DNA of 64,000 nucleotides from Jaapia argillacea MUCL 33604 (taxonomy: Eukaryota; Basidiomycota; Agaricomycetes; Jaapiales; Jaapiaceae), in NCBI GenBank assembly GCA_000697665.1, contig KL197715.1, forward strand, positions 435,310 through 499,309, in the 5' to 3' direction. Positions 23,259 to 43,047 of the stretch are shown in pieces. Both the position numbers and the translations under genes were made by a program. Within the stretch, counting starts at the first letter, position 1. Every line of letters starts with the position of its first letter. The notes beneath the pieces were generated by a model that was not told the DNA's origin, made no database searches, and saw only the letters and a program-made list of their open reading frames with translations.

Positions 23259-24816
23259 ATGCCCATTGACGCGGACGTTGCCAGTAGGACCGTCTGCAAC
23301 GACTACGCCCAACGAATCATTACTGGAGGCAAAGGAAAGAGGTGCTCTCGATCATCGACATGTAAATTCAGTCATTCTCTCCTCGACGTTTCGAAGTTCG
23401 ACGAACTCGCTGGTAGCAAAGGGGTTCGGACGAATACATCCCGACAGAAACTTGCAAGGCTGGAGTACTATGGGGAAGCTGTTTCAGGGATCTGGCGAGA
23501 GAGGTGGCAGGTTACTCTATCTGCGCACAAGCAGGATGGCAATCTTGAGACCCTGACCCATCCACTTGTTCACACCGACGCCGACGTCAATCGCGCTCTT
23601 GCGAAACTATTCGGAGATGCTACAAAGAGAGGTTTTCTAGTTGAAACGGCCGAATCTTTGGTGAGTGCAGCTTGGGTGAAGGGACTTGTGGTTCATGCGG
23701 TTGACGTCCCAACGTTTCGCGGTAGACGCCGTCGGGAAAGCATCTGACTGCATGCAAACATCACACGGAGGGCACTTGTCGACGTGGTAGTCGCTGTCCT
23801 TTCAACCACTCGCTGTTCGACGTTGGTCGTATCGAAAGGCTCATTGAATCCCCGGGGTGGTACACTGGTCGCCAAACATTCTTCGTGATAGACTACTTTC
23901 ATGTCGGGGGATCGTCTCCTCTGAGATGGAATATGTCCCTCATTGCCAGGTCCAAGGCCGATGCATCGGGCACCTTGTATGTGCTACCGGAGCCTATCGG
24001 CTCCGAAAGTACAAGCATCCACACTGCCATGCGATCTTTGGAAGCACTGGTCAGCTCTTTATACATACGTTGGAATACAAAACAGCTAATGCCCCCACTT
24101 AGGCTGAAGCAGAGAGACGAAGGGCCTTGCAGGTCAAGGACGTCGAGGCCTCCCAGATTGCAAGCCCATCAGGTCACTTCGTTCCCAATGACCAGTCGAC
24201 TCCGCCCTGTCCCGCATCAGTTCTAGACACGGGAATGGTCGCGAATACCTCCCGATTGCCACCAATCACTTTACATTCGCCCAGCCAAACCCTCGTCGAG
24301 ATAGACGAGGGCTTGTCCCGGTTTTCTTCCCCTCCCGCGTCTCCGTTTGAGCGGGACTCACTTGGTGAACCTTCGAGCTCACCTGCTACCACTCCTCCGT
24401 CAACTGGTCATTCATCGCCGCACTCTCCCTTGGAGAAACCTCTGCACGAGTCTCCAACACCTCAACTCGAACGGCCCGTTACGCCGAGTACGGAGTCAGG
24501 CGATCTGCGTTTCTCTCCATCAACGCAATCCCCCGCCCTCCTTCTATTACCGGAACCTACACCCTCAAGCCATGAGGATGTCGGAGGCAAACATTTATCT
24601 TCCCCGACGGAGCAAATTGCAGCAATCATGATATGCTGTAGAGATTCCTGGGATTCAATCTTATTGGACCCTGATCACCCCGATCATGGACTTGTACGAG
24701 ATATCACACTCGATGGAGTAGCCCACTCGTCCAACAATTGCGGGGTGTCGGAATGGCGGACGTTTTTGCAATGCATCCTTGTTCCCTTTGTCTGGAAGTA
24801 TATGTTGACTAGATGA
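23259..24816 (+). CDS. CCCH zinc-finger array protein, copy A (divergent)
   Basis: Exons 23259-23660, 23726-24049 and 24103-24816 join in phase to 479 residues. It shares exon layout and order with the five copies downstream but is much more divergent, so it may be the founder or an old copy. Exon 1 holds the first cluster, spaced C-x15-C-x5-C-x3-H (ends CKFSH). Exon 2 starts with a canonical CCCH finger, C-x7-C-x5-C-x3-H (CKHHTEGTCRRGSRCPFNH). Exon 3 is Ser/Pro-rich and ends with one degenerate copy of the W-VL-H-V motif (DSWDSILLDPDHPDH) and a hydrophobic C-terminal segment (FLQCILVPFVWKYMLTR) like a tail anchor. CCCH fingers usually bind RNA; the role of this protein is unknown. No JmjC fragment follows this copy. 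Confidence 0.75.
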
Positions 24817-25304
24817 GGTATGACTCGATTTATGTTTGGATACTTCACATGTTGAAGGGTGACTGTGGATTCACTAATATCACTTTCCTTGATGTTTATT
24901 TCTATGCATTCAATATATGCTTGTTTTGGGGACAGTACCAGTGCCCAAAGCTTCTCTGTATCGGGAGGCTTTGTTCACCTGGTATTTTTCTTTAGTTCGC
25001 ATATGCGAAATTGTGCGAATACTCCCTTTGCCTTACTATTACCCAACTCCTTTGTCATTACCCAACCTAGCTTTGTGGGTCGCTGCACTTATTCGAGATT
25101 TATGACGGACGCCCTGCAGTCGCTGAGCACCTGCTGGGCGTCTATCTTTTCATCTGCCACGGCCCTGGGCACCAGAGCTGAAACGTATGCTCGCTGCAAG
25201 GTCGGTGTCAATCACGGGCGTCTACGCATTTTACCGCGTTTCCGTGGGATGAATGTTGAGCGCTTATACTCCTTGTCCTCATCCTCGACTTGGCATTCAC
25301 TGGC
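24817..25304. other. Intergenic between array copies A and B
   Basis: From about 25136 the sequence matches the 5' flank repeated before copies C, D and F (gggcgtctatc block, then a block ending about 25 bp before the ATG). The first half is A/T-rich with no coding signal and is probably the 3' end of copy A. Confidence 0.5.
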
Positions 25305-27406
25305 ATGCCTGTGGACAAGGAATGGGCCGATAGGTCGGCATGCAGGGAATATTTTTCTATCTACACTGCTGCAGGAGACGAGCGCCGCCGTCGCTTGGTT
25401 GATCCCCGCTCCAGAGTAGGATCCCGAATCCGTGGATGCGGTCGTCATTGGTGCAGGTACAGCCACACGCTTCTCGACACTGCACGTTTACGCCTCCTGG
25501 TTGGCGACATAGGTCCCATATCGAGCTCCGCGAAGGAAACGTTGGTGACTGTGGAGTATGTGCGTGGCTCTGAGATATTCGGTCGCGTGGAGTCCGAGGG
25601 TTGGGTTTATGGGTGGAGAGTGACTCTGTTCGCGAGGGAGGTGCAGGGAACGCTCGAAGGGTTTACCGAGCCTCTCGTTTGCGAGGACGAGGATGTCAAC
25701 GTGGCGATCTCGAAGTTGATGGATATGTTGACAAGTCGAGGCTATCCCATTCCTTCTATTGATGGAAAGGTCCGTAATTCGTCTGCTTCCCATCGTCAAC
25801 CTGAATTCATCTCTTGACGCTAGGATGAATTGGGGAAGCGTATGACAATCTGCAACCATTACGCCGAAGACAACTGTAGACGAGGAAGTCGTTGCTCGTT
25901 CAACCATGATCTCTTTGATGTACAGCAGATCACTCGGTTAGTGGGTGATCCTGAATGGTATGGGGGTACCCAATCCTTCTTGACTCTGCAGTTTGACTAT
26001 CTGGCTACGCGGTCCTCGTCCTGGAGAATAACGCTACCTCCTGCAACACCGATCAGCAACCTTTCCAAACTTCGTTCTCCCATTTCTTGCGAGAATCCAA
26101 ATATTCACATAACGATGCTCTCAGTAGAATCTCTGGTAAGCTCGCCGCCGCTATGGTTTCAAATTGATCTTGACCTCGTATGATATATGTGTAGGTCGAG
26201 CTTGAAAGAGAGCAACCTACCATTTGCGCGACACCCCAAAGCAAGGTCACACCTGTGGTCCGAGTCCCCTCGGTGGTGGCTCCTTCGCTACCTCCTGCTA
26301 AATCTCAGACCCAATCGCGACCTAGTACCCAGAGCCAAGATTTTCCCCCTCTCTCCGCTCCAGCAGCACCGCCGCCCATCAAGGCTGTGGTTGCCCCAGT
26401 GCCGAACGCCATAACGCCCCAGTCCCAATCAGGGCAGGCTGCCTCAGCACACAATCTCCCTGGATCCTTACCTTCAACGCACCTGCCACAAACCAAGGCT
26501 CCAAATGCCCTCATCCCGCCCCTGTCATCTCATCCTGTTCCAACACAGCAGACTCCACTTCTACAGACAAAGTCTCATCCGCCTCCCCAGCATCTGTCGC
26601 AAACTAAGGCTGCAAGTGCACTCATGACTACGTCCGAGTCTTCCAAACCATCCACAACGACACAAACCCAGCGCCTACCTATTGACTCTGCCCCTAACCC
26701 CCTACCCTCCCAACCGATCCCCCTGCCTCCCACAACCGATGATCGCACCCTCAGGACCGAGAAAATCGGCACTACGTCTCAGCAGATTCGAGAAGATATT
26801 CATTCCATTCCAGACCAAGTTTCTCGGAATACTTCAACCATCGCGGCGCCCAGGGTGAATTCATACGGCGCTATCACCTCCACCCACCAACAAGCGCCGC
26901 CGAAGACCTCCTCGCCCCATCGATCTGCCGCTCAGCAGCGTCCGGCTTCTGCTTTTGAGGGCAGGCAAGAGTCCCCTGTCACGATCCATGCAATGCCCGA
27001 AATTTCTGTCCCTGGTTGGGGAGACAGCGATTATTTGGCCGTTTTGTCAAGCCGCGGTTGGCACCCGGATTACAATCGTGTCTGGTGTATTCTACGCGAA
27101 CGGGATCGTTTGCGCAGAAGCCAACCAACCTCGTCCATAGCCCCTCAGCTTACTCTGTGGGAATCTGCGTATTACCAGTCTGTTCTAGCGGATCCGAGCC
27201 ATCCAGAGTGGGGCCGAGTTCATAATTTGTCGCGAGTCCATGGACATTCACTACCGGCAACAATACCGCCACCGCGTACCCCCCAACGTGCTCCTCCACG
27301 TGCTCCTCCAAGCGCTCCCAGCGAGAGCGGAGGACGGAGTACGTGGTCGCCTACTGTCGTCACCGTAGCTGGCCTAGTAATATTATACTTTGTGTATTTC
27401 CGGTGA
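25305..27406 (+). CDS. CCCH zinc-finger array protein, copy B
   Basis: Exons 25305-25769, 25824-26135 and 26195-27406 join in phase to 662 residues. The first cluster is C13-x31-C45-x4-C50-x3-H54, with an unusually long first spacing. The second is a canonical CCCH finger, C165-x7-C173-x5-C179-x3-H183. Exon 3 encodes about 250 residues rich in Pro, Ser, Gln and Thr, then the motif pair PGWGDSDYLAVL...YNRVW and WESAYYQSVL...HPEWGRV, then a Ser/Pro spacer and a final hydrophobic segment (VVTVAGLVILYFVYFR) ending in Arg. That layout suggests a cytosolic RNA-binding protein anchored by its tail in a membrane; this is inference. The reading frame is intact. Confidence 0.75.
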
Positions 27407-27476
27407 AGCACCATTGACTTTCCGGAGATGACGCTTCCATCCGCTTGGTTGAACAACCTGTGCATATATTTCCTGG

Positions 27477-27695
27477 TGTACGCTAGAACCACTTTGGCAC
27501 CGAAAATCTAACATCCTTACTACTCAAAGCGTGCCGCCGCCAGGTGGGAAGAACAAAAGTTGAATACTTATCCTCATGCTCAGGTTCAAGCTTGACTCAC
27601 GGCGCTAATGGCTTGGGGAACGACATATTCCCAACTTGGAAAAAAGGCATGCTGTTCCCGACTTTCCTCTTCAGAAGTTCAGAAGTTGTGGTGGG
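27477..27695 (-). pseudogene. JmjC gene 3' fragment (after copy B)
   Basis: A short, strongly decayed stretch matching the last exon of the JmjC gene at 41267-41607. Recognisable pieces are the block around the GWW codons (plus-strand CAGGTGGGAAGAACAAAA) and the CTTTCCTCTTCAG block. Its reading frame is lost. It marks copy B as an early duplicate of the same unit. Confidence 0.55.
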
Positions 27696-27910
27696 CAAGG
27701 TACAGGTTCAGACTGGTACTGGTGGGTGTCCATCTCGTTCTCTTAGACTGCTACGATCAGCTGAGCTCGCTAGAATGTCGGCGTCAACTACTGGTACTGT
27801 ATTACGGGCGTCTATCTATTTTACCGCGTCGTGAGATGAATGCTGAACGTGAACGTTGAGTGCTTACTATACATGCCGCTTGTCCTTAGCCTGGTCTTAT
27901 ATTCACTGAT

Positions 27911-30900
27911 ATGCCTGTTGACAAGGAATGGGTGGATAGGTCGGCGTGCAGGGAATATGTTTCTATCTACACTTCTGCTGGAGATGAGCGTCATCGTCGT
28001 TTGATTGATCGACTAGGATCACGAATCCGTGGATGCGGTCGTCATTGGTGCAAGTACAGCCACACACTCCTCGACACTTCACGTTTACACCTCCTCGTTG
28101 GCGATATTGATTCTATATCTACATTCACGAAGGAAACGTTGGTTACCTTGGAGTATGTGGGTGGCTTCAAGATATTCGGCCGCGTGGAGGGTTGGGATTA
28201 TGGGTGGAAGGTGACTCTACACGCGAGGGAGGCACAGGGGGCAATCGAACGGTTTACCAAGCCTCTCATTTGCGCAGACGAGGATGTCAACGTGGCGATC
28301 TCGAAGTTGGTGGATATCTTGATAAGTCGAGGATATCCCATGACCTCTCTTGACGGAAAGGTCCGTCATTCGCCCGCTTCATACCGTCAACATAAATTTA
28401 TCTCTTGACGCTAGGATGCACTGGGTAGGCGTACGACGATCTGCAACCAGTACACCGAAGGCAACTGTAGCCGAGGAAGTCATTGCTCGTTCAACCATGA
28501 TCTTTTCGACGTCCAACAGATCAATCAGCTCGTGGGCCACAGTGGGATGTATACGGGTACCGTATCCTTCTTGACTCTGCAGTTTGACTACTTGGCTACG
28601 CGTTCCTCGTCCTGGAGAATGACGCTACCCACTGGAACGCCGAGCATCAATCTTTCCAAACTTCGTTCTCCTATTTCTTGCGAGAATCCAAACATCCACA
28701 TAACGATGCTCTCATTAGAATCTCTGGTAAGCTCGCCGCTACTGTATAGTTTTCTAATTCATACTTGACCTCCTATGATATGGGTAGGTCGAGCTTGAAG
28801 GAGAGCAACCTGCCGTTTGCGCGACGCCCCAAAGCAAGATTACGCCTATGCTCTCCTCCGCGGTGGTTCCTTTGCTGCCTCCTGCTATACCTCAGGTCCA
28901 ATCACGACCTAGTATCCAGAGCCAAGACTATCCCCCTCTCTCCGCTTCAGCGGCACCACAGGCCACCAAGGCTGCGGTTGCCCCAGCGCCGAACGCGATG
29001 CAGTCCGGGTCCCAGTCAGGACAGGTCGTCTCAACAAACGATCTCCCGAGATGCTTGGCTTCATCACATCTTCCACAAACCGAGGCTCCAAGCGCCCTCA
29101 GCCTGCCCTTGTCATCCCAAGTTTTTTTCATACCGCAGACCCCACTTTTACAGACAAAACCTGATAATAGTCACTCGCCTTCCCAGCATCTAATACAGGC
29201 TAAGGCTGCGAGTGCCTTCATCCCTCGTGTGTCTTCCCAACATGCCACGCCACCACAAACACCGCGGCTATCTACCATCTCTGCTCAAAATCCCCCACAC
29301 TCCCAGCCGCCTCAGACCCAATCACGACACGGCATCCGGCGAGAAGATATCATCCGTCTCTTTCAAGTTCCTCCGGCGGCACTACAGCCCATCAAGACTA
29401 CAGCTTCCCCATCGCCGCACACGACAAAGCCGCCGTTCCAATCCCTACAGGCCATCCAAACGCATGATGTCCTGAGGCCCTCAGATTCAACGCATCTGCT
29501 TCAGGCCACGGCTCCAAGTTCCCTGAACCCGACCTTGTCTTCCCGACCTGTGGCGGCACCGCAGACCCCACTCCCACAGACAAGATCCCCTAACAAGCAC
29601 CCACCTTCCCAGCATCCAGCGCAACCTAAGGCTACAAGTGCCTTCATCCCTGCTATGTCTTCCGAGCCTATCACACCACCGCAAACCCCACGACTACCCA
29701 CCATCTCTGCTCACAGTCCCCCACGATCCCACCCGGCTCCGACCCAATCACGACATAGTATCCAACCAGAGGAGATCACCCGTCTTTTTCAAGGTGCTCC
29801 GTTAGCGCTGCAGCCCGTCAAGACTACAGCTACCCCATCGCCAAACGCGATAAAGCCGCTGTCCCAATCCCCACAGGCCATTCATCCGCATAATGGCCCG
29901 AGACCCTCAGATTCAACGCACCTGCTACAAACCAAGGCGCCAACTGCCTTCGTACCCCCCTTGTCATCGCGACCTACAGCAGCACCGCAGACCCCATTTC
30001 TACAGACAAGATCTAGTAACCATCCGCCTTCCCAGCATCCAGCACAAGCTAAGGCTGCAAGTGCCTTCTTCCCCGCTGTGTCTTCCCAACATGCCACACC
30101 ACCACAAACCCCGCAACTACCCACCACCTCTCCTCAAAGTCCCCCACACTCCCAGCCGCTTCAGACCCTATCGCGACCCGTTATCCGGCGAGAAGAGATC
30201 ACCCGACTCTTTCAATTTGCTCCTGCAGCGCCGCCGCCCATCGAGATTACAGCTACGCCATCGCCGAATACGATAAAGCCGCAGTTCCAATCCCAACAGG
30301 CCATCCAAACGCATGATATTCCGAGACCCTCAGATTCAACCCCTCCGCCACAAGACAATGCTCCAAGTTCCCCGAGCCTGTCCTTGTCATCCCGACCTGT
30401 GGCAGCACCGCAGACCCTACCTCTACAGACAGAATCATCTCATACTCCTTCAACTTTCCAGCCGATCGTCGCATTGCCCCCAAACCAAAAACCCCATGAT
30501 CCCCAGCAATCCTTAGCTTCAAAGAATCCGCGACACGCCGGGTCTCCAATTTCTCTGAGCCCGTCGTTGTCATCACGACCCGTACCAACACCGCAGACTC
30601 CACTTCTACAGACAAAATCTCCTCATGAATTTCCAACTTCCCAGCCGGTCGTCGTGCTACCCCCAAACCAAAAAACCGCACCAAAGGCTGGGGAATCCGA
30701 ATGGTCCACCACATCGCAAAGTCCTCGAACGAGGGCTAGTACTGTTGAAGTGGCCAATGTTAGTCTGCCCTCAACTCCAGCGCGGTCTCAGGTCGAGTGT
30801 TTCCCGAATACGATCTCCGGGGCGACCCCCAATTGCCAAAATAATTTGCTAGTCGTCGAAATTGAGTTCTTCCGACGGGGGGCTGCCGTCGTCTGCCTCC

Positions 30901-30914
30901 CGAAGGGTCTCTGA
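27911..30914 (+). CDS. CCCH zinc-finger array protein, copy C (C-terminally truncated, likely decaying)
   Basis: Exons 27911-28360, 28415-28726 and 28788-30914 read in phase to 962 residues. The two Cys/His clusters are intact (second finger C-x7-C-x5-C-x3-H). Exon 3 is the longest of the array because it holds about four copies of a 141-residue Pro/Ser/Gln-rich repeat. Compared with copy D, one base is missing near 30903, so the frame runs into TGA at 30912-30914. The motif pair and hydrophobic tail still follow as DNA (about 30960-31390), but a second in-frame stop (TAG at 31119-31121) shows they have decayed. A translated product would be soluble, lacking the tail. Confidence 0.65.
28902..30470 (+). 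repeat. About 141-residue proline-rich coding repeat, four copies (last partial)
   Basis: Copies start near 28902, 29322, 29748 and 30171, giving periods of 420, 426 and 423 bp, all multiples of three. Each copy begins with SR-x-x-I followed by an acidic or Gln-rich tetrad (for example RREEITRLFQ) and contains RPSDSTHL, SSRP, APQTP and HSQP blocks. Copy E of the array has two such repeats, copy D about one and a half, copy B about one and copy F none. In-frame periods indicate expansion under selection for an open frame. Confidence 0.75.
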
Positions 30915-31400
30915 CTCATACTACCAACAAGAGCACAGGGAGAACCTCTTCGTCAGCATAAACCCGCCCCCGAGCTTTCAATCCCTAGTTGGGGAAACGA
31001 CGATTCTCTCGTTGTTCTAGCAAATCCTGGACACAAATATTACAATCGTGTCTGGGACGTGCTTCGCGAGCTCGAACGGCGCCGGAGAGTATTGAATGTC
31101 AACCCAGCATCATTTACCTAGTGGGGATCCCAGTATTATCGCTCTGTCATATCGGATTACGATCATCCAGAATTCGATCGTGTGACGGGCATGTTGCGAG
31201 GCTGATGGCCCATATGGCAACCGTCTCCTTCTCCTCCTCCTCCTCCCCCTTCTCCTCCTCCTCCCCCTTCTCCTCCTTCTCCTTCTCCTTCTCCTCCCCC
31301 TTCTCCTTCCTCCGAAAGTCAAGGCGAAGGATGGAGCTGGTCTGGCGTTGCTACCGTCGCTGCTGCCGCTATGGTGCTGACACGGTTAGCGAGGAGCGGT
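30915..31400 (+). pseudogene. Relic of the C-terminal region of copy C
   Basis: This continues the homology to copy D beyond the premature stop: the PxWGNDD-like motif, the YYNRVWDVLREL-like segment, a proline-coding TCC tract and the Ala-rich tail segment (about 31335-31405) are all readable. An in-frame TAG sits at 31119-31121. It is no longer joined to the upstream frame. Confidence 0.6.
31221..31316 (+). repeat. TCC/CTC microsatellite
   Basis: A pyrimidine tract of imperfect TCC/CCT triplets that would code for Pro and Ser. The homologous spot is short in copy D (about 34801-34825) and, in copy F (about 40996-41040), a CCTCCT tract coding a run of prolines. It lies just before the tail segment in each copy, so its length varies the spacer to the membrane anchor. 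Confidence 0.7.
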
Positions 31401-31514
31401 ATATAATTCTGTGCGGGAGCTGTGCCCTTCGTCACTCCGCCTAACTTTCGTGGTTACAAGATCTGTATTGTCATCATCCCTATTCAGTGCTGTACAAGTC
31501 CACACGTCGTTCTT

Positions 31515-32169
31515 GTTGTACACCAGAACCACATCGAAACCGAAAAGCTAACATCTTCACGTGCCACCACCCAGGTGGAAAGAACAAAATATCCCCAGGT
31601 TCAAAAGTCACGCTCGTCGCTTGGGGGGCAACATGCTCCCAAAACAAGGGATACTGTCTGCGAACTCCCCCTTCAGCTCCGCCTGCATTGGCAAAGACGT
31701 CCACTCGAGAAGTGTCGCTCACCGAAGGGCAAGTCGTGTTGGCGGCTGGATTGTGCAGATGGTCTTGGTTTGATGTCAAAGATGTTAGATAAAGGTACAT
31801 GTACGGAGTGGCACTTGGGGGCGCAAGCCAGACTGTTTTTCGACCCACGACTTGGGCTACAAAACTGGAAGGATGGGGGTGGCTAACGTGACAAAAGTAA
31901 AACAAACCATAAAAATTGAAGTAGGGATCCTTCAGATGCTCAGGAAGAAATGACAAGGAAGACATGCTGTATGGGCCGCGGGGGAAACGGTACCCTTGGG
32001 ACCTAACCCAGCGTTAAGGACCAGTTCTTCCTCGTTTCGAGGGGTAGTAATCAGGAAAGTCCGCTTGTGGCCAGTGAAGCATACATAGACGATTCCGTCG
32101 ATGTCTGATCTCAGAAATTTGGGAACTAGAGGAAAAGGTTATGTTAGGCAAGGTACTAACAGACTGGAG
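31515..32169 (-). pseudogene. JmjC gene 3' fragment (after copy C)
   Basis: Homologous to the JmjC gene from its stop codon region up to about 41935. The last exon is still an open frame (QVVGRKTVWLAPP, RVDVFANAGG, GDILFFPPGWWH), and the small DPYFNFYG exon is also present. The N-terminal three quarters of the gene are missing, and the part from exon 2 carries changes. The end at 32169 adjoins the 5' flank of copy D exactly where the unit joint occurs. It cannot make a full oxygenase. Confidence 0.8.
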
Positions 32170-32453
32170 GGAGTCTATCTCAAGTTCTCTGCCACGACTC
32201 TTGGGCACTAGATCTATAGAGCTGAGACGCGCGCTCGCTACAAGCTTAAGGTCGGCGTCAACTACGGGCGTCAACTTATATATCTATTTTACCACATCCT
32301 GTGGGATGAATGTCGATGTTTAGCGCTTATACTGTAAGTACGGGTGTCTAATACTTACATACAGTGGCTATTTTGTCACATCCCGTGAGATGAATGTTGA
32401 CTCCGTTGAGCGCTTATACTCCTTGTCCTCATCTCGACTCGGCATTCACTGGC

Positions 32454-34917
32454 ATGCCTGTGGACAAGGAATGGGCCGATAGGTCGGCTTGCACGGAATA
32501 TGTTTCTATCTATACTTCTGCAGGAGATGAGCGCCACCGCCGCTTGGTTGATCCCCGCTCCAGAGTAGGATCACGAATCCGCGGATGCGGTCGTCATTGG
32601 TGCAAGTACAGCCACACACTCCTCGATACTTCACGTTTCCACCTCCTGGTTGGCGACATTGGCCCTATATCTACATCCACGAAGGAAAAGTTAGTGACTT
32701 TGGAGTATGTGGGTGGCTTTGAGATATTCGGCCGCCCGGAGGATTGGAATTATGGGTGGAGGGTGACTCTATATGCGAGGGAGGCACAGGGAACACTGGA
32801 ACGGTTTACCGAGCCTCTCGTTTGTGCGGACGAGGATGTCAACGTGGCGATCTCGAAGTTGGTGGATATCTTGACAAGTCGAGGATATCCCATGCCTTCT
32901 CTTGGCGGAAAGGTCCGTCATTCGTCTGCTTCCTATCGTCAATATGAATTTATCTCTTGACGCTAGGATGCATTGGGGAGGCGTACGACGATCTGCAACC
33001 GTTACACTGAAGGCAACTGTGGACGGGGAAGTCGTTGTTCGTTCAACCATGATCTGTTCGACGTCCGACAGATCACTCAACTCGTGGGCCATAGCGGAAT
33101 GTATTCGGGTACCGTATCCTTCTTGACTCTGCAGTTTGACTATCTGGCTACGCGTTCCTCTTCCTGGAGAATGACGCTACCCACTGGAACGCCGAGCATC
33201 AACCTTTCCAAACTTCGTTCTCCTATTTCTTGCGAGAATCCAAATATTCACATAATGATGCTCTCAGTAGCATCTCTGGTAAGCTCGCTGCTGCTGTAAA
33301 GTTTTCTGATTCATACTTGACCTCGTATGACATGTGTAGCTTGAGCTTGAAAGAGAGCAACCTCCCATTTGCGCGACGCCCCAAAGCAAGATTACGCCTG
33401 TGCTCTCCTCGGTGGTGGCTCCTTCGCTACCTCCTGCTACACCTCAGATCCAATCGCGACCTAGTACCCAGAGCCAAGATTTTCCGCCTCTCTCCGCTTC
33501 AGCAGCACCACAGCCCACCAAGGCTGCGGTTGCTCCGGCGCCGAACGCGATACAGCCCTGGTCCCAATCAGGACAGGCCGTCTCGACACACAATCTCCCG
33601 AGATCCTTGGCTTCAATCCACCTACCACAAACCCAGGCTCCAAGTACCCTCGGCCCTCCCTTGTTATCCCAAGTTGCACCAGCACCGCAAACCCCACTTT
33701 TACGGACAACATCTAGTAATAATCATCTACCTTCCCAGCATCTAACACAAGCTAAGGCTGCAAGTGCCCCCTTCCCTGCTGTGTCTTCCCAACCTGTCAC
33801 ACCACCACAAACCCCGCGACTAGCCACCATCTCTGCTCAAAATCCCCCATGCTCCCAGCCGCCTCAGATCCAATCCCGACAGGCCATCCAAACGCATGAT
33901 GTCCTGAAACCCTCAGATTCAACGCACCTGCTACAAGCCAAGGCTCCAAGTTCCCTGAACCCGAACTTGTCATCCCGACCTGTGCCAGCACCACAGACCC
34001 TAATTCTACAGACAAAATCTCCTCATAATCCTCCAACCTCCCAGCCGATCGTCGCATTACCCCCAAACCAAAAACCCCATGATCTCCCGATATCCTTAGC
34101 TTCAAAGAATTTGCCACAACCCAAGTCTCCAAGTTCCCTGAGCCCGTCTTTGTCATCACGACCTGTACCAGCACCGCAGACTCCACTTCTACAGACAAAA
34201 TCTCCTCATACTTTTCCAACTTCCCAGCCGGTCGTCATGCTACCCCCAAACCAAAAAACCGCACCGAAGGCTGAGGAATCCAAGTGGTCCACCACATCAC
34301 AAAGTCCTCGAAGGAGCGCTAGTACTGTTAAAGTACCAAATGTTGGTCTGCCCTCAACCCCAGCACAGTCTCAGGTTGGGTGGTCGCAGAATACGAGCTC
34401 GAGGGCGACCCCCAGCCAACATAATTCGCCAGTCATCGAAATTGTTCGCCAGCGGACTGCCGTTGTCTGCCTCCCGACAGGGTCTCTGACTCATACTACG
34501 AACAAGATCACAGAGGGAGAAGCTCTTCGTCAGCATAAACCCGCCCCCGAGCTTTCAATCCCTGGTTGGGAAAACGACGATTATCTTGCTGTTCTAGAAA
34601 ATCCTCGACACAAATATTACAATCGTGTCTGGGACGTACTTCGCGAGCTCGAACGGCGTCGGAGAGTATTGAACGTCAACCCAGCGTCATTTACCAAGTG
34701 GGAATCCCAGTATTATCACTCTGTCATATTGGATTACGATCATCCAGAATTCAATCGTGTAGTGGGCATGGTGGGACGATGGCACTCCTTATGGCAACTG
34801 TCTCCTTCACCTTCTCCTTCCTCCGAAAGTCAAGGCGAAGGATGGAGCTGGTTTGGAGTTGCTACCGTCGCTGCTGCCGCCATGGTGCTGACACGGTTGG
34901 CGAGGGGCGGTATATAA
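32454..34917 (+). CDS. CCCH zinc-finger array protein, copy D
   Basis: Exons 32454-32912, 32967-33278 and 33340-34917 join in phase to 782 residues, with no disruption. The first Cys/His cluster has the long first spacing; the second is C-x7-C-x5-C-x3-H (CNRYTEGNCGRGSRCSFNH). Exon 3 has about one and a half proline-rich repeats, a QTKSPH...LPPNQK block seen twice, then the motif pair (PGWENDDYLAVL...YYNRVWDVLREL and WESQYYHSVI...HPEFNRV) and a Trp-flanked Ala-rich tail (WSWFGVATVAAAAMVLTRLA). It is the closest relative of copy C and shows what C looked like before decay. The weakly hydrophobic tail makes membrane insertion less certain here than in B. Confidence 0.75.
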
Positions 34918-35028
34918 TTCTGCGTGTGAGCTGTGCTATTCGTCACTCCGCCTAACTTTCGTCCTTACAAGATCTGTATTGTATTCATCCCTATTCGGTG
35001 CTGTACAAGTCCATACGAGTTCTTGTTG

Positions 35029-35690
35029 TACACTAGAACCACATCGAAACCAAGAAGCTAACATCTTCGCTTCTCAAAGAGCGCCACCACCCAGGTGGAA
35101 AGAACAAAATATCCCCAGGTTCAAGAGTCACGCTCATCGCTTGGGGGACGACATGTTCCCGACGAAACAAGGGGAACTGTCTGCTACTTCCTCTTCAACT
35201 CCGCCTACATTGGCAAAGACGTCCACCCGAGAAGCGTGCTCATTGAAGGGCAAGTCGTGTTGGCGGGTGGGTTGTGCAGATGGTTTTGGTTTCATGTCGA
35301 AGATGCTGGATAACTTGAAGGGTACATGTACCGAGCCGTACTCGGAGGCGCAGCGGCCAAGCCAAAATATTTTTCGACCCACGACCTGGGCTACAAAATT
35401 GGAAGGATGGGGGCGGCTAACGTGACAAAAGTAAAACAAACCATAAAAATTGAAGTAGGGATCCTGCTGAATGACAAGGAAGACATACTGTATGGGCCGC
35501 GGGGGAAATGGTACCCTTGGCAGTGGGACCTAACCAAGCGTTGAGGAACGGTCCTTCCTCGTTTCGAGGGGTAGTAATCAGGAAAGTCCGGTGGTGGCGT
35601 ACGTAGACATAATCAGGGATGTCGTCGATGTCTGATCTCAGCTTCGGGAACTAGAGGAAAGGTTGTGTCGGGCAAGGTAGCGGACTGGAG
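35029..35690 (-). pseudogene. JmjC gene 3' fragment (after copy D)
   Basis: The same JmjC 3' segment as behind copy C, with more damage: the last exon is frameshifted (QVVGRKIFWLG then an altered frame) and part of the upstream exon is deleted. RVDVFANVGG is still readable. It ends at the GACTGGAG joint at 35690. Confidence 0.75.
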
Positions 35691-35855
35691 GGCGTCTATC
35701 TCGTTCTCTGCCACGACCCCTGGGCGCTAGAGCTGAGGCTTATGCGCTACAAGGTCGGCGTCAATCATGGGCGCCTATCTATTCTACCACATGCACATCC
35801 CGTGGGAGAATGTTGACGTTGAGCGCTTCTACTCCTCGTCCTCGCCCTCGTCTTC

Positions 35856-36873
35856 GTAAAGGCCTCTTGAACTTGAACCACAACCTGGTCTTGTTTTTCC
35901 CACGCTTTTTAGCTGGGCAAGAGAGCGAGCTCGACGATGTCGAGCTCGCTACCAAGTCGATAGCCTCTCATCGCCACGCTGCCCAGTCCCATTGGACTAC
36001 ACCTCGACTGGACCTTCAGGTCTCACCACGCCAGGCCTTACAGCCAACTTCGACGATCATTGCGATCAACCCGTCACCCAAGGCTCGCGCCGGTCACCCA
36101 CTCGACATTCCATCTTCCCAGTACATCGGCATTACCAACCTGAAGCGCGGCTCCTCCTCTGTCGAATCACGAGCAAACGCACCATGGCCCAAAATGCGCC
36201 ACGACTGATGCGACACGTCCGAACCCAGCGGGAACTCCCGTCTGTTTTCGGGGCACTGCCCCTGTACTGCGGCGTCATATTCTCCTAGTTTTCTCATCAC
36301 AGAACTTACCACCACCTACCCTACTCCCACTCCTCTCACCACAACCTCGCCATCAACCACATCTGCTCTCGAGGAGCACTTGCAGGAAGGACCTTGTTTG
36401 AAGCCCGGACATGCCTACCGGGCAAGCCTGACGGCGTTGACATTGGAAGCCCACCGGCGTAGTATAGCGAGTGGGGGTGTCCGTGTAGGGAGGAATCCTG
36501 ATAGGCATCTGCCCTTGGCTGCGGGGACGGTCGATGTTGAGGTTGGAAGGTCGAGAAGAGTGAAGGTTGTAGAATGGCGGAGGGTTTGATTTTCTGATGT
36601 TACTAACTGTGTTCAATCTGTTTTATGACCGTCTCGTGCTTTCCGTCCCACTTATTGCCTTTCCCGAATCCTGCCATCCCGGTACTTCCCCCCTCCACGA
36701 TACAATTTTGAAAACACCCTATGCTTTATCCCTGTCGAACATTTTCACGTTTCCCGGTTGTCCTCTATGCTCGCAGTTGGCCCTGTAGTAGTGTTAGATA
36801 ACCACCGCGTCTTAGCTCATTAGTTAGCTTGTTGCGGTATATAAATCGAGAGTTCATCATCACCCTCGTCTTC
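35856..36873. mobile_element. About 1-kb insertion bounded by 11-bp direct repeats
   Basis: CCCTCGTCTTC occurs at 35845-35855 and again at 36863-36873, with about 1007 bp of sequence foreign to the array between them. This looks like a target-site duplication. The insert has no terminal inverted repeats that I can see, ends in ATCATCA, and contains a 131-codon ORF (35810-36208, partly flank) without recognised motif. A non-LTR or short non-autonomous element is possible. The repeat may instead be chance or duplication, since this pyrimidine-rich flank varies among copies. Confidence 0.45.
35924..35950. repeat. Perfect 12-bp inverted repeat with 3-base loop
   Basis: AGCGAGCTCGAC is followed by GAT and its exact reverse complement. 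It lies near the left end of the 1-kb insertion and could form a strong hairpin. Confidence 0.7.
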
Positions 36874-36885
36874 ATATTCACTGGC

Positions 36886-39368
36886 ATGTCTGTGGACCAG
36901 GAATGGGCCGATAGGACGGCGTGCAGGGAATATGTTTCTATCTACACTTCTGCAGGAGATGAACGCCGTCGTCGCTTGATTGATCCCCGCTCCAGACTTA
37001 AATCAGGAATCCATGCATGCGGCCGTCGTTGGTGCAAGTACAGCCACACACTTCTCGACACTTCACGTTTGCGCCTCCTGGTTGGCGACGTCAGTCCTAT
37101 ATCTATATCTACGAATGAAAAGTTGGTGACTTTGGAATATGTGTCAATGGGTGGTTACGGCCGCCCGGAGGTTTGGAACTATGGGTGGAAGGTGACTCTA
37201 TACTCGAGGGAGGCACAGGGAACACTCGAACGCTTTACCGAGCCTCTCGTTTGCGAGGATCAGGATGTCAATTTGGCTATCTCGGAGCTGGCGGATGTCT
37301 TGAGAAGTCGAGGCTATCCGATGCCCTATATTGATGGGATGGTCCGTCATTGGTCCTCTTCCTATCCCTAACTCGAATTCATCTGTTGCCAATAGAATCC
37401 GACGGAGAGGCGCATGACGATCTGCAACCATTACATTGAAGGCAACTGTAGACGAGGAACTCGTTGTCCGTTCAACCACGATCTCTTTGATGTAGAGCAG
37501 ATCACTTGGTTGGTGGGTCATCCTGATTGGTGTGGCGGTAGTGCCATGCCCTTCTTCATTCTGCGGCTCGATTATCTCGCGACGCGTTCCTCGTCCTGGA
37601 GAATGACACTTCTCGCTCGGTCGATGGATCAAAACCTATGGCTCTCTGGGCCCCCACTTTCTTGCGAGAATCCAAATATTCACATCACAATGCTCTCTGT
37701 TGAATCTCTAGTGGGTTTCCTTCCTCTTGCATCAAATAACCGATCTTGAGCAGGTGTTATATCCAGGCTGAGATTGAAAGTGAGGAATCAGATTCTTCTG
37801 CCACGTCGCCACCAAACAAGGTTGCGTCTGTACTCACCGATTTGGCACCTCCGCTGCCTCCGGCCACGCCTCAGTTACAATCGCGACCTAGCATCCAGAG
37901 GCAAGATTTTTCTCCTCTCTTCGCTCCAGCGGCACCACTGCCCATTAAAACTGCTGCTACCCCATTGCCGAACGCGATAAAACTCCAGTCCCAATCCCGA
38001 CAGGCGATCCAAATTCATGATGCCCTGAGACCCTCAGATCCATCGCATCTGCCACAAGCCAAGGCTCCGAGTTCCCTGAGCCCGTCCTTGTCATCCCGAC
38101 CTGTGCCAGCACCGCGAACCCAACTTCTCCAGACAAGATCTCCTAGCGGTCATCCACCTTTCCAACATCCAACACAAGCTAAGGCTGAAAGTGCCTTGAT
38201 CGCTGATGTGTCTTCCCAACCTATCACACCGCCACAAGCCCTGCGACTATCCAACATCTCTGCTCAAAATCCCCCACACTCCCAGCCACCTCAGACCCAA
38301 TCACGGCACAGTATCCGACGAGAAGATCTCACCCGTCCCTTTCAAGGTGCTCTGGCGGCGCCGCAGCCCATCAAGGCTACAGCTACCCCGTTACCGAACC
38401 CGATAAAGCCGCAGTCCCAATCCCGACAGGCTCTTCAAACAGATGATGTCCCGAGACCCTCAGATTCAACGCATCTGCCACAAGCCAAGGCTCCAAGTGT
38501 CCTCAGCTCGTCCTTGTCATCCCCACCTGTGCCAGCACCACAGATCCGACTTCTACAAACGAAGTCTGCTCATAATCATCCACCTTCCCAGCTGCCACAA
38601 GCTGAGACTGCAAATGCATTCATTCCAGCTACGTCTTCCCAACCATCCACGGCAGCACAAAACCCGTTTAAAAGTTTCTGTCTCACCACAAAGGCGAGGA
38701 CAGCTGAAACTGCATCTCAGCAGCATCGAGGAGATATTCCCTCGATTCGAGCCACGGTTACTCAGCACACTCGATCCGCAGCGGCCTCCAGCGCAAACTC
38801 CTACGCCGCTACCACTTCCACCCACCAACAAAAACTACCGGAATCCTCTTGGTCCCCTCAATCCGTTGCCCAGCAGCGTCACACTCAGGCTCGTGAGGGT
38901 GGACGAGTGTCTCCGGTCACGATCCACGATCCAATACCCGAGCTTTTTGTCCCTGGTTGGGGAAACAGCGATTATTGGGCCGTATTGTCAAGCCGCGGTC
39001 GGCACCCCCATTACAATCGTGTCTGGAGTATTCTACGCGAACGGGATCGTTTGCGCAGAAACCAACCCACCTCATCCGTAACCCACGGGTTTACTCTATG
39101 GGAATCTGAATATTACCAGTCTGTTTTATCGGACTGGAACCATCCAGAGTGGGACCAAGTTTATAATTTGTTGCGAGTCCATAGAGATTCACTACCGGCA
39201 ACGATAAAGCTACCGCTTACTCCCCGACCTGCTTCTCCACCTTCTCCTCCAAGCGATCCGAGCGAGAGCGGAGAATGGAATCTTTGGTCACCTGCCACTG
39301 TTGTCACCATAGCTGCTTTAGCGACCAATGCTGTACTTCTCGCTGTATTTTCGACGAAGCGCCATTGA
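36886..39368 (+). CDS. CCCH zinc-finger array protein, copy E (chimeric)
   Basis: Exons 36886-37341, 37396-37710 and 37767-39368 join in phase to 790 residues. The N-terminal half (MSVDQEWADRTACREY; second finger CNHYIEGNCRRGTRCPFNH) is closest to copy F, and its second intron starts GTGGG rather than GTAAG as in B-D. The C-terminal half (STHQQ, SPVTIHD, PGWGNSDYWAVLSSRG, WESEYYQSVLSD) is closest to copy B. Two proline-rich repeats lie between. The tail (TVVTIAALATNAVLLAVFSTKRH) is hydrophobic with a basic end, like a tail anchor. The frame is intact. The mosaic pattern points to unequal crossing-over or gene conversion inside the array. Confidence 0.75.
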
Positions 39369-39430
39369 CTTTCTGGAGATGACGTTGCCATCCTTGTTTG
39401 AACAACCTGTACACATGCTGTATTTCCTAG

Positions 39431-39558
39431 TGTACACTAGAACCGCATTGAAACCGAAAAACTAACATCTTCACTTCTCAAAGTTTGACTCGAAGCGCAG
39501 GTGGAAAGAATAAAATACGTGGGCGACTTCAGGTCCTCGATCTATCGATAGGCTCAGG
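39431..39558 (-). pseudogene. JmjC gene 3' fragment (after copy E, largely deleted)
   Basis: About 130 bp. It joins the extreme 3' end of the JmjC gene (matching about 41265-41345) directly to the intron between its exons 2 and 3 (matching about 41680-41712), so about 330 bp were deleted internally. It then runs into the 5' flank of copy F. Confidence 0.65.
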
Positions 39559-39762
39559 CGAGGGCGTCTATCTCATTCTCTGCCACGACCCTTGGGCGCT
39601 AGAGCTGAGGTGTGTGCTCGCTACATAGTACAAGCTTAAGGTCGGTGTCAACTACGGGCGTCTACTTCCGTGCAGTGTCTATTTTACCGCGTCCCGTGGG
39701 ATGAATGTTGATGTTGAGCGCTTATACTCCTTGTCCTCACCCTCGTCTTGGGACTCACTGGC

Positions 39763-41151
39763 ATGTCTGTGGACCAGGCATGGGCCGATAGGACGGCGTG
39801 CAGGGAATATGTTTCTATCTACACTTCTGTAGGAGATGAGCGCCGTCGTCGCCTGATTGATCCCCGCACCATTACAGGATCACGAATCTATGGATGCGGT
39901 CGTCGTTGGTGCGAGTACAGCCACACACTTCTCGACACTTCTCGTTTGCGCCTCCTGGTTGGCGACATTGATACTATATCTACATCCACGAAGGAAACGT
40001 TGGTGACTTTGGAGTATGTGGGTGGCTTTGAAATATTCGGCCACTCGGAGGCTTGGAATTATGGGTGGAAGGTGACTCTATACGCGGGGGAGGCCCAGGG
40101 AACGCTGCAACGATATACGGAGCCTCTCGTTTGCATGGACGAGGATGTCAACGTGGCGATCTCGAAGTTGGTTGGTGTCTTGAGAAGTCGAGGTTATTCG
40201 ATGCCCTCTATTGATGAGGAGGTCCGTCATTGGCCATCTTCCTGTCGCTAACTTGAATTAATCTGTTGTCAATAGGATCCAATGGGGAGGCGCATGACGA
40301 TCTGCAACCATTACATCAAAGGCAACTGTGGACAAGGAACTCATTGTTCATTCAACCATGATCTCTTTGATTTACTGCAGATCGCTCGGTTAGTGGATTA
40401 TCCTGCATGGTATTTGGGTGCCATACCCTTCTTCACTCTGCGGCTGGATTACCTCACGACGGGTTCCTCGTCCTGGAGAATGACACTTCACGCTCGATCG
40501 GCTAGTGGCGAGCTGCGCCAGCTCCCCTTACCTGTTTCTTGCGAGAATCCAAATATTCACACCGCTATGCTCTCTGTTGAATCTCTTGTGAGTTTCTTGT
40601 TCTTGCCTGAGTTGACCGACCTTGACCTGGTGTTATATGTTCAGGCCGAGTTTGAAAGCCAGTACTCTGTCACGTCGCGACCAAACTATGCTTCGTCAGA
40701 AACTCTTCGTCAGCTCAAAGCAACCCCCGAGCCTTCATTCCCCGGTTGGGAACACGACCATTATCTCTTTGTTCTCAACGAACCTGGACACGAATATTAC
40801 GATCGTGTCTGGGACTTACTTCGCGAGCTTGAAGAACGTCGGAGAGAGTTGAACGTCTCCCCAGCGCCATTCGCCAAGTGGGAATTGGAGTATTATCTAT
40901 TTGTTATGATAGCGGGAAAGAATCACGTGGCATTCGATCATGTGGGGGAGCTGTTGCGAGGCCGATGGGACCTTTACTCCACGCCGCAACCGTCTCATCC
41001 TCCTCTTCCTCCTCCCCCTCCTCCTCCTCCTCCCCTCCCTCCGCGACCGTCCTCCAAAAGTCAAGGCGAAGGATGGAGCTGGCTTGGTGTTGCTGCCGTC
41101 GCTGCCGGCGCTGCAATCGTGCTGACACTGCTGGAGAGGGGCCGTGGATGA
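39763..41151 (+). CDS. CCCH zinc-finger array protein, copy F (short form)
   Basis: Exons 39763-40221, 40276-40587 and 40645-41151 join in phase to 425 residues. Both Cys/His clusters are intact (second finger CNHYIKGNCGQGTHCSFNH). The proline-rich linker is absent: exon 3 goes almost directly from the finger domain to the motif pair (PGWEHDHYLFVL...YYDRVWDLLREL and WELEYYLFVM) and then a polyproline spacer and a Trp-flanked tail (WSWLGVAAVAAGAAIVLTLL). The second intron (40588-40644, 57 nt) is in frame and stop-free, so retention would add 19 mostly hydrophobic residues. This copy defines the conserved core of the family. It faces the complete JmjC gene tail to tail. Confidence 0.75.
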
Positions 41152-41266
41152 TTCTGTACGCCAGATGTGCCATTCGTCACTCCGTCAACTTTCGTCCTTA
41201 CTGGATATGTATTGTATTCATCCCTATTCTCAGTGCTACAAGTCCATACAATTTTCTTGTTGTACA

Positions 41267-42767
41267 TTAGAACCACATCGAAACCGAAAAGCTAACATCT
41301 TCGCTCCTCAAAGCGTGCCACCACCCAGGTGGAAAGAACAAAATATCACCAGGTTCAAGAGTTACGCTCATAGCTTTCGGGACTACATGTTTCCAAAACA
41401 AGGGATACTGTCTGCGACTTTCCTCTTCAGCTACACCTGCATTGGCAAAGACGTCCACCCGGGAAGTGTTGCTCATTGAAGGGCAAGTCGTGTTGGCGGC
41501 TGGGTTGTGAGGATGGTCTTGGTTCGATGATGATGGTGGATAAGGGTACATGTACGGAGTGGTGCTTGGAGGTGCAAGCCAGACAGTTTTACGACCCACG
41601 ACCTGGGCTGCATGACTATAAGGACGCGGGCGACTGTCGTGACGAAAATAGAACGAACCATAAAAATTGAAGTAGGGATCCTTCAGGCCCTCGATCTATC
41701 AATAGGCTCAGGAGGCAATGAAAAGGAAGACATACTGTATGGGCGGGGGAAATGGTACCCTTGGGACCTAACCAAGCGTTGAGGACAAGTTCTTCCTCGT
41801 TTCGAGGGGGCTCGTAATCAGGAAAGTTCGGTGGTGGTCGTAGTGAAGCATAGACATAATCAGGGACGACTATGTCTGATCTCAGCTTTGGGAACTGGAG
41901 GAAAAGGTTGTGTTGGGCAAGGTAAAAGACTGGAGTATCTTTGTGAGGGTCGAACAAAAAGCCGAGGAACTTGTCCCAATCCATCATTTCTTGTGTCCAG
42001 TCTTCAGCACGATAGTCATTACCAATTTCGATGGGGACGATTCGTCCGGGACCAGAGACGGAACGGAGATATTGTGGAGATTGCCAGGGATGTTCGGTCA
42101 TCGCTGGCCAATCTCTGATGTATCCGGTCAAGATGAAGGGTTGGTGAGAGTAGTGGTTTCGGAAGGTTGACATGGACGGAGGTGATTCCAGGTGAGGTAC
42201 ACGGGACGATGCTGATGGTGGCAGGGCGAGGATTGAGTTGGTGGGTAGTGGTTCATGAGAACTTTTTGCGCAGTATGGGGTGGTCGGCATATAGTGAGAT
42301 TGAATCTGGTCGATGAGGTCGTAAATTAGGCCGAGTCGACCCTCCCCTGGAGCTCCCGCGATAACAATAGCACGGTCCAACCACGAAATGCAAGAGAGTG
42401 CAAGCTTGTCATCCGTGGTTTCGGCGCTGGCGAGGCTTCTGAAAATACAAGCGTCGGTGTATAATCTCCTCCAGCACAGATTGGGTTGACGAGAGAATGT
42501 GGACATTGTCTCGTGGGCAAAGTCAATCAGCGCTTCCAGTTCATTGAGAAGCGCCTGCTTTGGGCGTCCATCGAGAAGATCTTGGACAGCGCTTCGCAGC
42601 CTGTCGACAGTCTCACGACCACAAGGAAGCAGATCTAGAGAACGGTGAGAGGCGGGATGTATGATGGGGGTAAGAAGCAGACCTGCAATGTCTGGCTGGT
42701 ATTCCTGATGTAGACGATGAGCGAGGACGATGAGGAGTTCGTCGGGGCAGGGAGCAGTTTGTGGCAT
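41267..42767 (-). CDS. JmjC-domain oxygenase, JMJD5/KDM8-like
   Basis: Exons on the minus strand: 42767-42683, 42634-41736, 41680-41659 and 41607-41267, in phase, 448 residues. JMJD5-type proteins are Fe(II)/2-oxoglutarate oxygenases reported as arginyl hydroxylases or histone demethylases. The sequence shows FILTGYIRDWPAM, an EDWTQEMMDWDKFL block, YLAQHNLFLQFPKLRSD and, across the splice, the iron-binding HTD followed by PYFNFYAQVVGRKTVWLAPP. The distal ligand is in PPGWWHALR. Exon 3 is a 22-nt microexon coding the DPYFNFY part of the active site. The first intron (48 nt) is in frame and stop-free. The 3' end of this gene was copied into the zinc-finger array on its downstream side. Confidence 0.88.
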
Positions 42768-43047
42768 TGCTTTGTTTCGATGAATAATTCATGAAATGAT
42801 CGAGCCGGGGTTCGCTGCGTGGTGCGGATCAAAAAAAAACGTATTCAGTCGTGCATAATTTCCAAACGTGGCAAGGTCCATGCGAAAAGAAGGTCACACG
42901 CCAGTCACACTGAGCTCACAGAAACCTCATAAATAAGGTCCTCCGCGCGGGCAGATCGCCCAAAGACCCCAAGATTACCCGCACTCAAAGGAACACACTT
43001 CATCCGGCGCGCCCGGTCCGGTGCACTGCACGTGACCAACATACAAT
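42768..43047. promoter_or_regulatory. Divergent promoter between JmjC gene and MOT1
   Basis: 280 bp separate the two start codons, so both promoters share this region. An AT-rich CATAAATAAGG block at about 42927 could act as a TATA element for MOT1. A run of nine A's follows the JmjC leader side at about 42831. Confidence 0.5.

Follow-up and report, generated by a model that had tools for sequence, protein, structure and literature searches.

A tandem array of mosaic CCCH zinc-finger genes in the fungus Jaapia argillacea that may encode membrane-tethered RNA-binding proteins

What are six closely related zinc-finger genes doing side by side in one fungal genome, and what kind of protein do they encode? 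The question is raised by contig KL197715.1 of Jaapia argillacea MUCL 33604, of which we analyzed a forward-strand window of 64,000 nt; unless another contig is named, positions given here are coordinates of this window. Six paralogs, A to F, follow one another on the plus strand from 23259, where the ATG of copy A begins, to 41151, where the stop codon of copy F ends. A preliminary description of the locus had placed six consecutive genes of three exons each at exactly these coordinates, and the gene models bear it out. Beyond the models themselves, our analysis reveals internal duplications in the proteins, two types of C-terminus, a mosaic history and constraint on the cores of B to E. As to what the genes encode, our answer—held with about as much confidence as doubt—is that they specify membrane-tethered (tail-anchored) CCCH RNA-binding proteins, present in this genome as one array.

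Six genes and the proteins they specify

Each copy fits a model of three exons separated by GT..AG introns in phase 0, without internal stops, although copy C is modeled only as far as its own stop (Table 1). The models are based on sequence. Intron 2 is 53–61 nt long; intron 1 is 65 nt in A and exactly 54 nt in each of B to F, where it begins with GTCCGT (25770, 28361, 32913, 37342 and 40222), an uncommon splice donor. The stretch from exon 1 to exon 2 of B–F contains two in-frame stops, so that exon 2 can be reached from the first ATG by splicing only. Over the first aligned stretches, identity is 60–76% in the 10 pairs among B–F and 35–38% in the five pairs that include A, the most diverged copy. 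Chance similarity is excluded by the pairwise E-values, that of B–F, for example, being 7e-111.

The head of these proteins is encoded by exons 1 and 2. The canonical finger noted earlier, C-x7-C-x5-C-x3-H, is present in exon 2 of all six copies, and in five of them (A–E) it scores above the curated cut-off of the Pfam family zf-CCCH (PF00642), exon 2 of E reaching 26 bits. The best match of that exon among PDB sequences is CPSF4 (E 1.3e-7); KIAA1064, tristetraprolin and muscleblind come near 1e-3, and ZAP comes at 0.08. Judged by the sequence of finger 2, then, the products of the array are zf-CCCH proteins.

Exon 1 is less conventional. Its cluster reads C-x31-C-x4-C-x3-H in F and C-x15-C-x5-C-x3-H in A, and an Arg-rich insertion stands between the first two Cys in B–F but not in A, which has two stretches that match zf-CCCH in Pfam. 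The four ligand columns of this cluster are invariant in all six copies, as are those of finger 2. When profiles of exon 1 and exon 2 are compared, they prove homologous (hhalign E 7.4e-13), and they do so even with the fingers removed (E 9.1e-9; score 47.6, the highest of 200 column shuffles reaching 20.6), both E-values being those of single comparisons. What had been called an atypical first Cys/His cluster thus belongs to the first half of an internal duplication, whose unit is a CCCH finger plus some 80 residues; on these hhalign comparisons, it is preferable to regard it as the first of two copies of a finger module. In F about 110 residues separate the two fingers (H54 of exon 1 to C10 of exon 2).

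Behind the head comes a linker rich in P, S, T, Q and A, which together make up a fraction of 0.62–0.64 of it in B–E. It is variable, as the preliminary description had said, and labile in length: the linker of C contains a 426-bp coding repeat in 3.1 tandem units, related units occur in D and E, and F, the minimal copy of that description at 425 amino acids (aa), has almost none.

The C-terminal domain that follows contains a motif of about 29 residues, twice in most copies and once in A. The duplication of the motif is supported by an hhalign score of 33.5, the highest of 200 column shuffles being 14.1. The halves compared were picked by hand; both came from B, D, E and F, and the second was taken from A as well. 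The domain is modeled as helices, with a predicted local distance difference test score (pLDDT) of 81–90, by blocks, over residues 31–70 and 86–88 over residues 81–100; for the model of exon 3 as a whole the mean pLDDT is 65.9 and the predicted template modeling score (pTM) 0.47. Foldseek searches of PDB and BFVD with the model of the domain gave no match at E <= 0.001.

Copies B, D, E and F end in a hydrophobic tail like that of a tail-anchored protein, and in each of them this tail contains the two windows of highest hydrophobicity. When the last 60 residues were shuffled 5000 times, the hydrophobicity of the tail was never reached for E or F, and was reached 10 times for B and 130 times for D. 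Four of the five copies compared thus exceed their shuffles, B, E and F clearly and D marginally; copy C, its C-terminal end being broken, was left out.

Mosaic genes and selection on their parts

Did the copies arise and diverge as units? They did not. Pairwise identities differ among the copies from segment to segment, and two trees result: from exon 1 to intron 2 the copies divide as BCD|EF, and in the C-terminal part as BE|CDF, the latter tree including the broken remains of C and leaving out A. Each tree is rejected by the other segment (approximately unbiased test, p 5e-4 and 1e-7). The genes are mosaics, and their C-termini are of two types, type I in B and E, and type II in C, D and F. 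Copy B resembles D up to a switch within the linker, which falls between about 26600 and 26770, and resembles E beyond it. The neighbors hint at the direction of exchange. A Cupin_8/JmjC-like gene adjoins F, and copies of its 3' end lie after C and after D (Table 1), so the type II ends of C and D were probably derived from F's side.

One copy has partly decayed, as the preliminary description had recognized. It is C, whose remains, found by tblastn with the C-terminal part of D, contain three in-frame stops and a local shift; its finger core is still open. Local amplification and a birth-and-death pattern, also proposed at the outset, are supported by the array itself, by this partly dead copy and by the labile linker. 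Exchange between copies, which had gone unseen, is supported as well and adds to that picture.

Selection was gauged by the ratio of replacement to silent substitution rates (dN/dS), calculated by the Nei–Gojobori method (NG86) with 95% bootstrap intervals. Because pairwise ratios average two lineages, counts on terminal branches were added, by a crude method that gene conversion can disturb. For exons 1 and 2 together, dN/dS is 0.23–0.67 in the 10 pairs of B–F, every one with its interval below 1 (E–F 0.47–0.98); in the five pairs with A, dS is saturated or nearly so. By branch, the core has accumulated 19 replacement and 26 silent changes in C (a ratio of about 0.25), 12 and 14 in D (0.27), 41 and 27 in B (0.49), and 36 and 22 in E (0.56). 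Binomial p-values for fewer replacements than under neutrality are 3e-6 for C, 0.001 for D, 0.003 for B and 0.02 for E, and 0.79 for F. The finger core is constrained, then, on the branches to C, D and B, and more weakly on that to E, but not on that to F. That the head of C is constrained despite three stops in its C-terminal part implies that the damage is young or that the head is still useful.

The remaining parts of the proteins evolve in other ways. For the linker, dN/dS is 0.62 between C and D and 0.65 between B and D (two pairs). For the C-terminal part, in four of the six pairs among B, D, E and F, both within-type values are compatible with neutrality (B–E 0.84, interval 0.52–1.50; D–F 0.70, interval 0.44–1.16), and the between-type values are 0.39 for B–D and 0.24 for E–F.

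Table 1. Features of the array and its immediate neighbors, in window coordinates
Feature	Position	Strand	Description
Copy A	23259–24816	+	Exons 23259–23660, 23726–24049, 24103–24816; 479 aa; gene model and identity to the other copies
Copy B	25305–27406	+	Exons 25305–25769, 25824–26135, 26195–27406; 662 aa; C-terminal type I, like E
Copy C	27911–30914	+	Exons 27911–28360, 28415–28726, 28788–30914; 962 aa up to its own stop; open, constrained finger core and broken C-terminal part
Linker repeat of C	29132–30431	+	426-bp coding tandem repeat, 3.1 units
C-terminal remains of C	30915–31410	+	Type II, with in-frame stops; tblastn with C-terminal part of D
Remnant of neighbor gene, between C and D	31407–32169	-	Duplicated 3' end of Cupin_8/JmjC-like gene; 81% identical to 41152–41935; open reading frame (ORF)
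Copy D	32454–34917	+	Exons 32454–32912, 32967–33278, 33340–34917; 782 aa; C-terminal type II
Second remnant of neighbor gene, between D and E	34929–35690	-	3' end of Cupin_8/JmjC-like gene; 80% identical to 41163–41935; ORF
Retroposon-like insertion, between D and E	35856–36862	.	About 1 kb; flanked by copies of an 11-base target duplication; ends 23 bases before the ATG of E
Copy E	36886–39368	+	Exons 36886–37341, 37396–37710, 37767–39368; 790 aa; C-terminal type I
Copy F	39763–41151	+	Exons 39763–40221, 40276–40587, 40645–41151; 425 aa; C-terminal type II; almost without linker
Exon 1 of F (module 1)	39763–40221	+	CCCH finger whose first loop is long, followed by some 80 residues; all six copies have a homologous exon 1 (alignment)
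Exon 2 of F (module 2)	40276–40587	+	C-x7-C-x5-C-x3-H, followed by a module of the same kind; all six copies have a homologous exon 2 (alignment)
C-terminal helical domain of F	40735–40977	+	Motif of about 29 residues, present twice
Hydrophobic C-terminal tail of F	41080–41148	+	Low-confidence helix, exon 3 residues 146–166, pLDDT about 50
Cupin_8/JmjC-like gene	41270–42788	-	Convergent with copy F; ORFs 41270–41695 and 41619–42788

The retroposon-like element between D and E has a CAT-rich end and carries the stretch TATATAAAT about 40 bases from the start codon of copy E. A second copy of the element, 93% identical and with a 15-base duplication of its own, occurs elsewhere in the genome. 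The last 60 or so bases of the element between D and E (36801–36862) have about 20 short matches elsewhere in the genome at 83–95%, and are perhaps a 3' end common to several families of elements. At a distance from the array, a Pkinase_fungal gene (E 4.6e-19) lies at 4881–6293; this match and the short introns are in keeping with a fungal genome.

Relatives, near and far

How widely is the family spread? The genome searched comprises 43,724,918 bases in 95 contigs. With the F protein, less its tail, 13 matches were found up to E 10, of which 12 are in the cluster; with the head of A there were 10, all in the cluster; and with the C-terminal domain of E there were six, five of them in the cluster. 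The two strays, one on contig C58 (E 1.11, F protein) and one on C28 (E 0.21, C-terminal domain), were set aside as chance. To judge by sequence similarity, the family is confined within this genome to the one array. CCCH fingers as such are common: at least 32 zf-CCCH matches occur in the genome at E <= 0.001, finger 2 of A–E accounting for five. A dense zf-CCCH locus on contig C26 (372800–375100) contains a finger-coding unit of about 345 bases in tandem, possibly units of exon plus intron; it is unmatched by the array family and was rejected as another gene.

Outside the genome, the profile of both modules found no match among PDB sequences up to E 10, and matches there to exon 1 of E (best E 0.5) and to its C-terminal part (0.096) were taken as chance. 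Pfam has no match above cut-off over either the added module of about 80 residues or the C-terminus. No relative was confirmed among viral contigs for exon 2 (79 pattern matches) or the C-terminal domain (three), nor among prokaryote contigs for exon 2 (66 pattern matches), these scans, in which exon 1 was not included, being a weak test for a fungal family. Among the papers listed by literature searches, no title or abstract opening describes this architecture. The claim that the family is an unrecognized one stands, therefore, against Pfam, PDB sequences, and viral and prokaryote contigs; the decisive set, fungal proteomes, lies outside the comparison.

Known systems resemble the array proteins in part. 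Ordinary members of PF00642 share finger 2 with them, but here each finger sits inside a duplicated module, and the C-terminal repeats and tail have no match above cut-off. Tristetraprolin (TTP) and Tis11 likewise have two CCCH fingers, and the PDB sequences matched include tristetraprolin (E 0.00097); in TTP-type proteins, however, a short fixed spacer keeps the fingers near each other, whereas those of the array are far apart and each is followed by a module of its own. Tail-anchored proteins have a single hydrophobic segment at the extreme C-terminus and no N-terminal signal peptide; the tails of B, E and F are clear candidates for such a segment and that of D a marginal one, but A lacks one.

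ZAP (ZC3HAV1) and PARP12 offer another parallel. Proteins of this kind carry a WWE domain; neither a WWE nor a PARP catalytic family appears when the Pfam matches of A and F are followed up to E 10, and a PARP12-type finger profile is present weakly, below cut-off only. ZAP and PARP12-type fingers are among the weak matches of the array proteins. In an excerpt of PMC13084044, ZAP is given four CCCH fingers and a PARP-like domain, and a title cited there has its long isoform at membranes. The array proteins differ in having two distant fingers, and a predicted hydrophobic tail where ZAP has a lipid. By analogy, ZAP may serve as a useful model of a CCCH protein that acts at membranes.

A resemblance to double-stranded RNA-binding domains (dsRBDs) was considered and rejected. 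It was prompted by the helix-strand-strand-strand-helix order that a low-confidence model gives to both modules. When A, F and the first two exons of E were scanned with Pfam, no match to dsrm (PF00035) emerged up to E 10, and comparison of the module with three dsRBD-like segments of the genome gave hhalign E-values of 0.5–0.6, a weak test, since only three of 20 dsrm matches were used and one of these was below cut-off.

What the proteins may do

From these parts we infer RNA binding, membrane insertion, orientation and partner binding, as follows. Each protein would consist of two homologous modules, a P/S/T/Q/A-rich linker and a small helical domain in which the repeat occurs twice, or once in A; B, D, E and F would have a hydrophobic tail as well. 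The tail would enter a membrane post-translationally, while head, linker and helical domain stayed cytosolic. RNA would be bound by finger 2 and probably by finger 1 too, the helical domain would bind a partner, and the protein would thus hold or sense particular RNAs on the membrane surface. The array would have grown by unequal exchange, and recombination within the linker would have paired heads anew with the two C-terminal types. Constraint on the cores of B–E argues for a conserved RNA target.

Several findings weigh against this scheme. Copy A has no tail that stands above its shuffles (1940 of 5000 reached it), that of D is marginal and that of C is broken. The hydrophobic end said to be shared by all six copies was seen in B, D, E and F, and anchoring is not universal. 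CCCH fingers usually, but not always, bind RNA; finger 2 of F falls under the Pfam cut-off (13.4 against 20.5 bits), and for exon 1 of E, Pfam has no matching family up to E 10. The model of the head, made by AlphaFold2 on seven rows, is unreliable (mean pLDDT 36), and because it is poor, the Foldseek list for it, without a match at E <= 0.001, was left unused. Where the Yang–Nielsen method (YN00) was applied, it gave higher ratios than NG86, up to 0.76 in the core exons and 1.17 in the B–E C-terminal part. Finally, the branch to F has 39 replacement and 10 silent changes in the core (39763–40587), a ratio of about 1.25 that signifies no constraint. This fits relaxed change as well as diversifying change, and F may be drifting or taking on a new role.

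The explanation that competes best with a membrane-tethered family is a plain one: that these are ordinary post-transcriptional regulators, of mRNA decay, processing or localized translation, duplicated in tandem by chance and without any role in conflict. We regard this as possible, if somewhat less credible. Constrained B–E cores are what it leads one to expect; the fingers resemble those of mRNA-processing proteins; and a piece of an unrelated neighbor has been carried along, as happens in chance unequal crossing-over. It does not account for the unconstrained branch to F, nor, by itself, for the contrast between 5' and 3' histories, although neutral gene conversion could produce the latter.

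It is rather unlikely, we think, that the array consists of decaying duplicates, only some copies working and the others drifting to loss. C is broken at its C-terminus, F has lost its linker along with constraint on its core, an element has inserted 23 bases before the ATG of E, and the within-type intervals for the C-terminal part include 1. Yet in all five young copies, B to F, the core is still open and the introns match, and every branch but that to F is constrained, as the p-values above attest.

Fainter still is the prospect of a defense against RNA parasites, in which an arms race with mycoviruses or retroelements has shuffled the copies and tails of membrane-tethered RNA sensors that work in the manner of membrane-targeted ZAP. 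The exchange of cassettes, the repeats in the linker and the tandem birth-and-death pattern would suit it, as would a core in F that changes faster at replacement than at silent sites. Suggestive, too, are an excerpt of PMC5031192, where CCCH-directed transcript decay is proposed to have originated in defense against RNA pathogens, and the title cited in PMC13084044, according to which S-farnesylation targets the long isoform of ZAP to membranes. But the cores of B–E are constrained, and the ratio of about 1.25 in F is not above neutral in any test made and can be explained by relaxation; the within-type C-terminal parts, moreover, are compatible with neutrality. The two scans of viral contigs, with exon 2 and with the C-terminal domain, gave no relative; four pieces had no PADLOC match, a weak test in that the library is prokaryotic; and no link to known defense genes was found. 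The role in conflict or recognition at which the preliminary description had hinted is not borne out by these results, and nothing ties the genes to RNA parasites or to self/non-self discrimination. Very doubtful, finally, is the boldest form of the idea, that RNA parasites have led a hitherto undescribed fungal family of CCCH RNA sensors, membrane-tethered and built of two modules, to recombine its RNA-binding heads and its membrane or partner tails as cassettes within a single array.

Were the membrane-tethered reading true, it would add a membrane-anchored modular architecture to those of CCCH proteins, and would provide, inside 18 kb, a compact natural example of a single family whose heads and tails have separate histories. 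If the array turns out instead to reflect ordinary regulation, multiplied by unequal crossing-over, it is still a clean instance of cassette exchange, complete with a carried-along piece of a neighboring gene. The array allows comparison of strains to ask directly whether fungal families of RNA-binding proteins can evolve like recognition genes.

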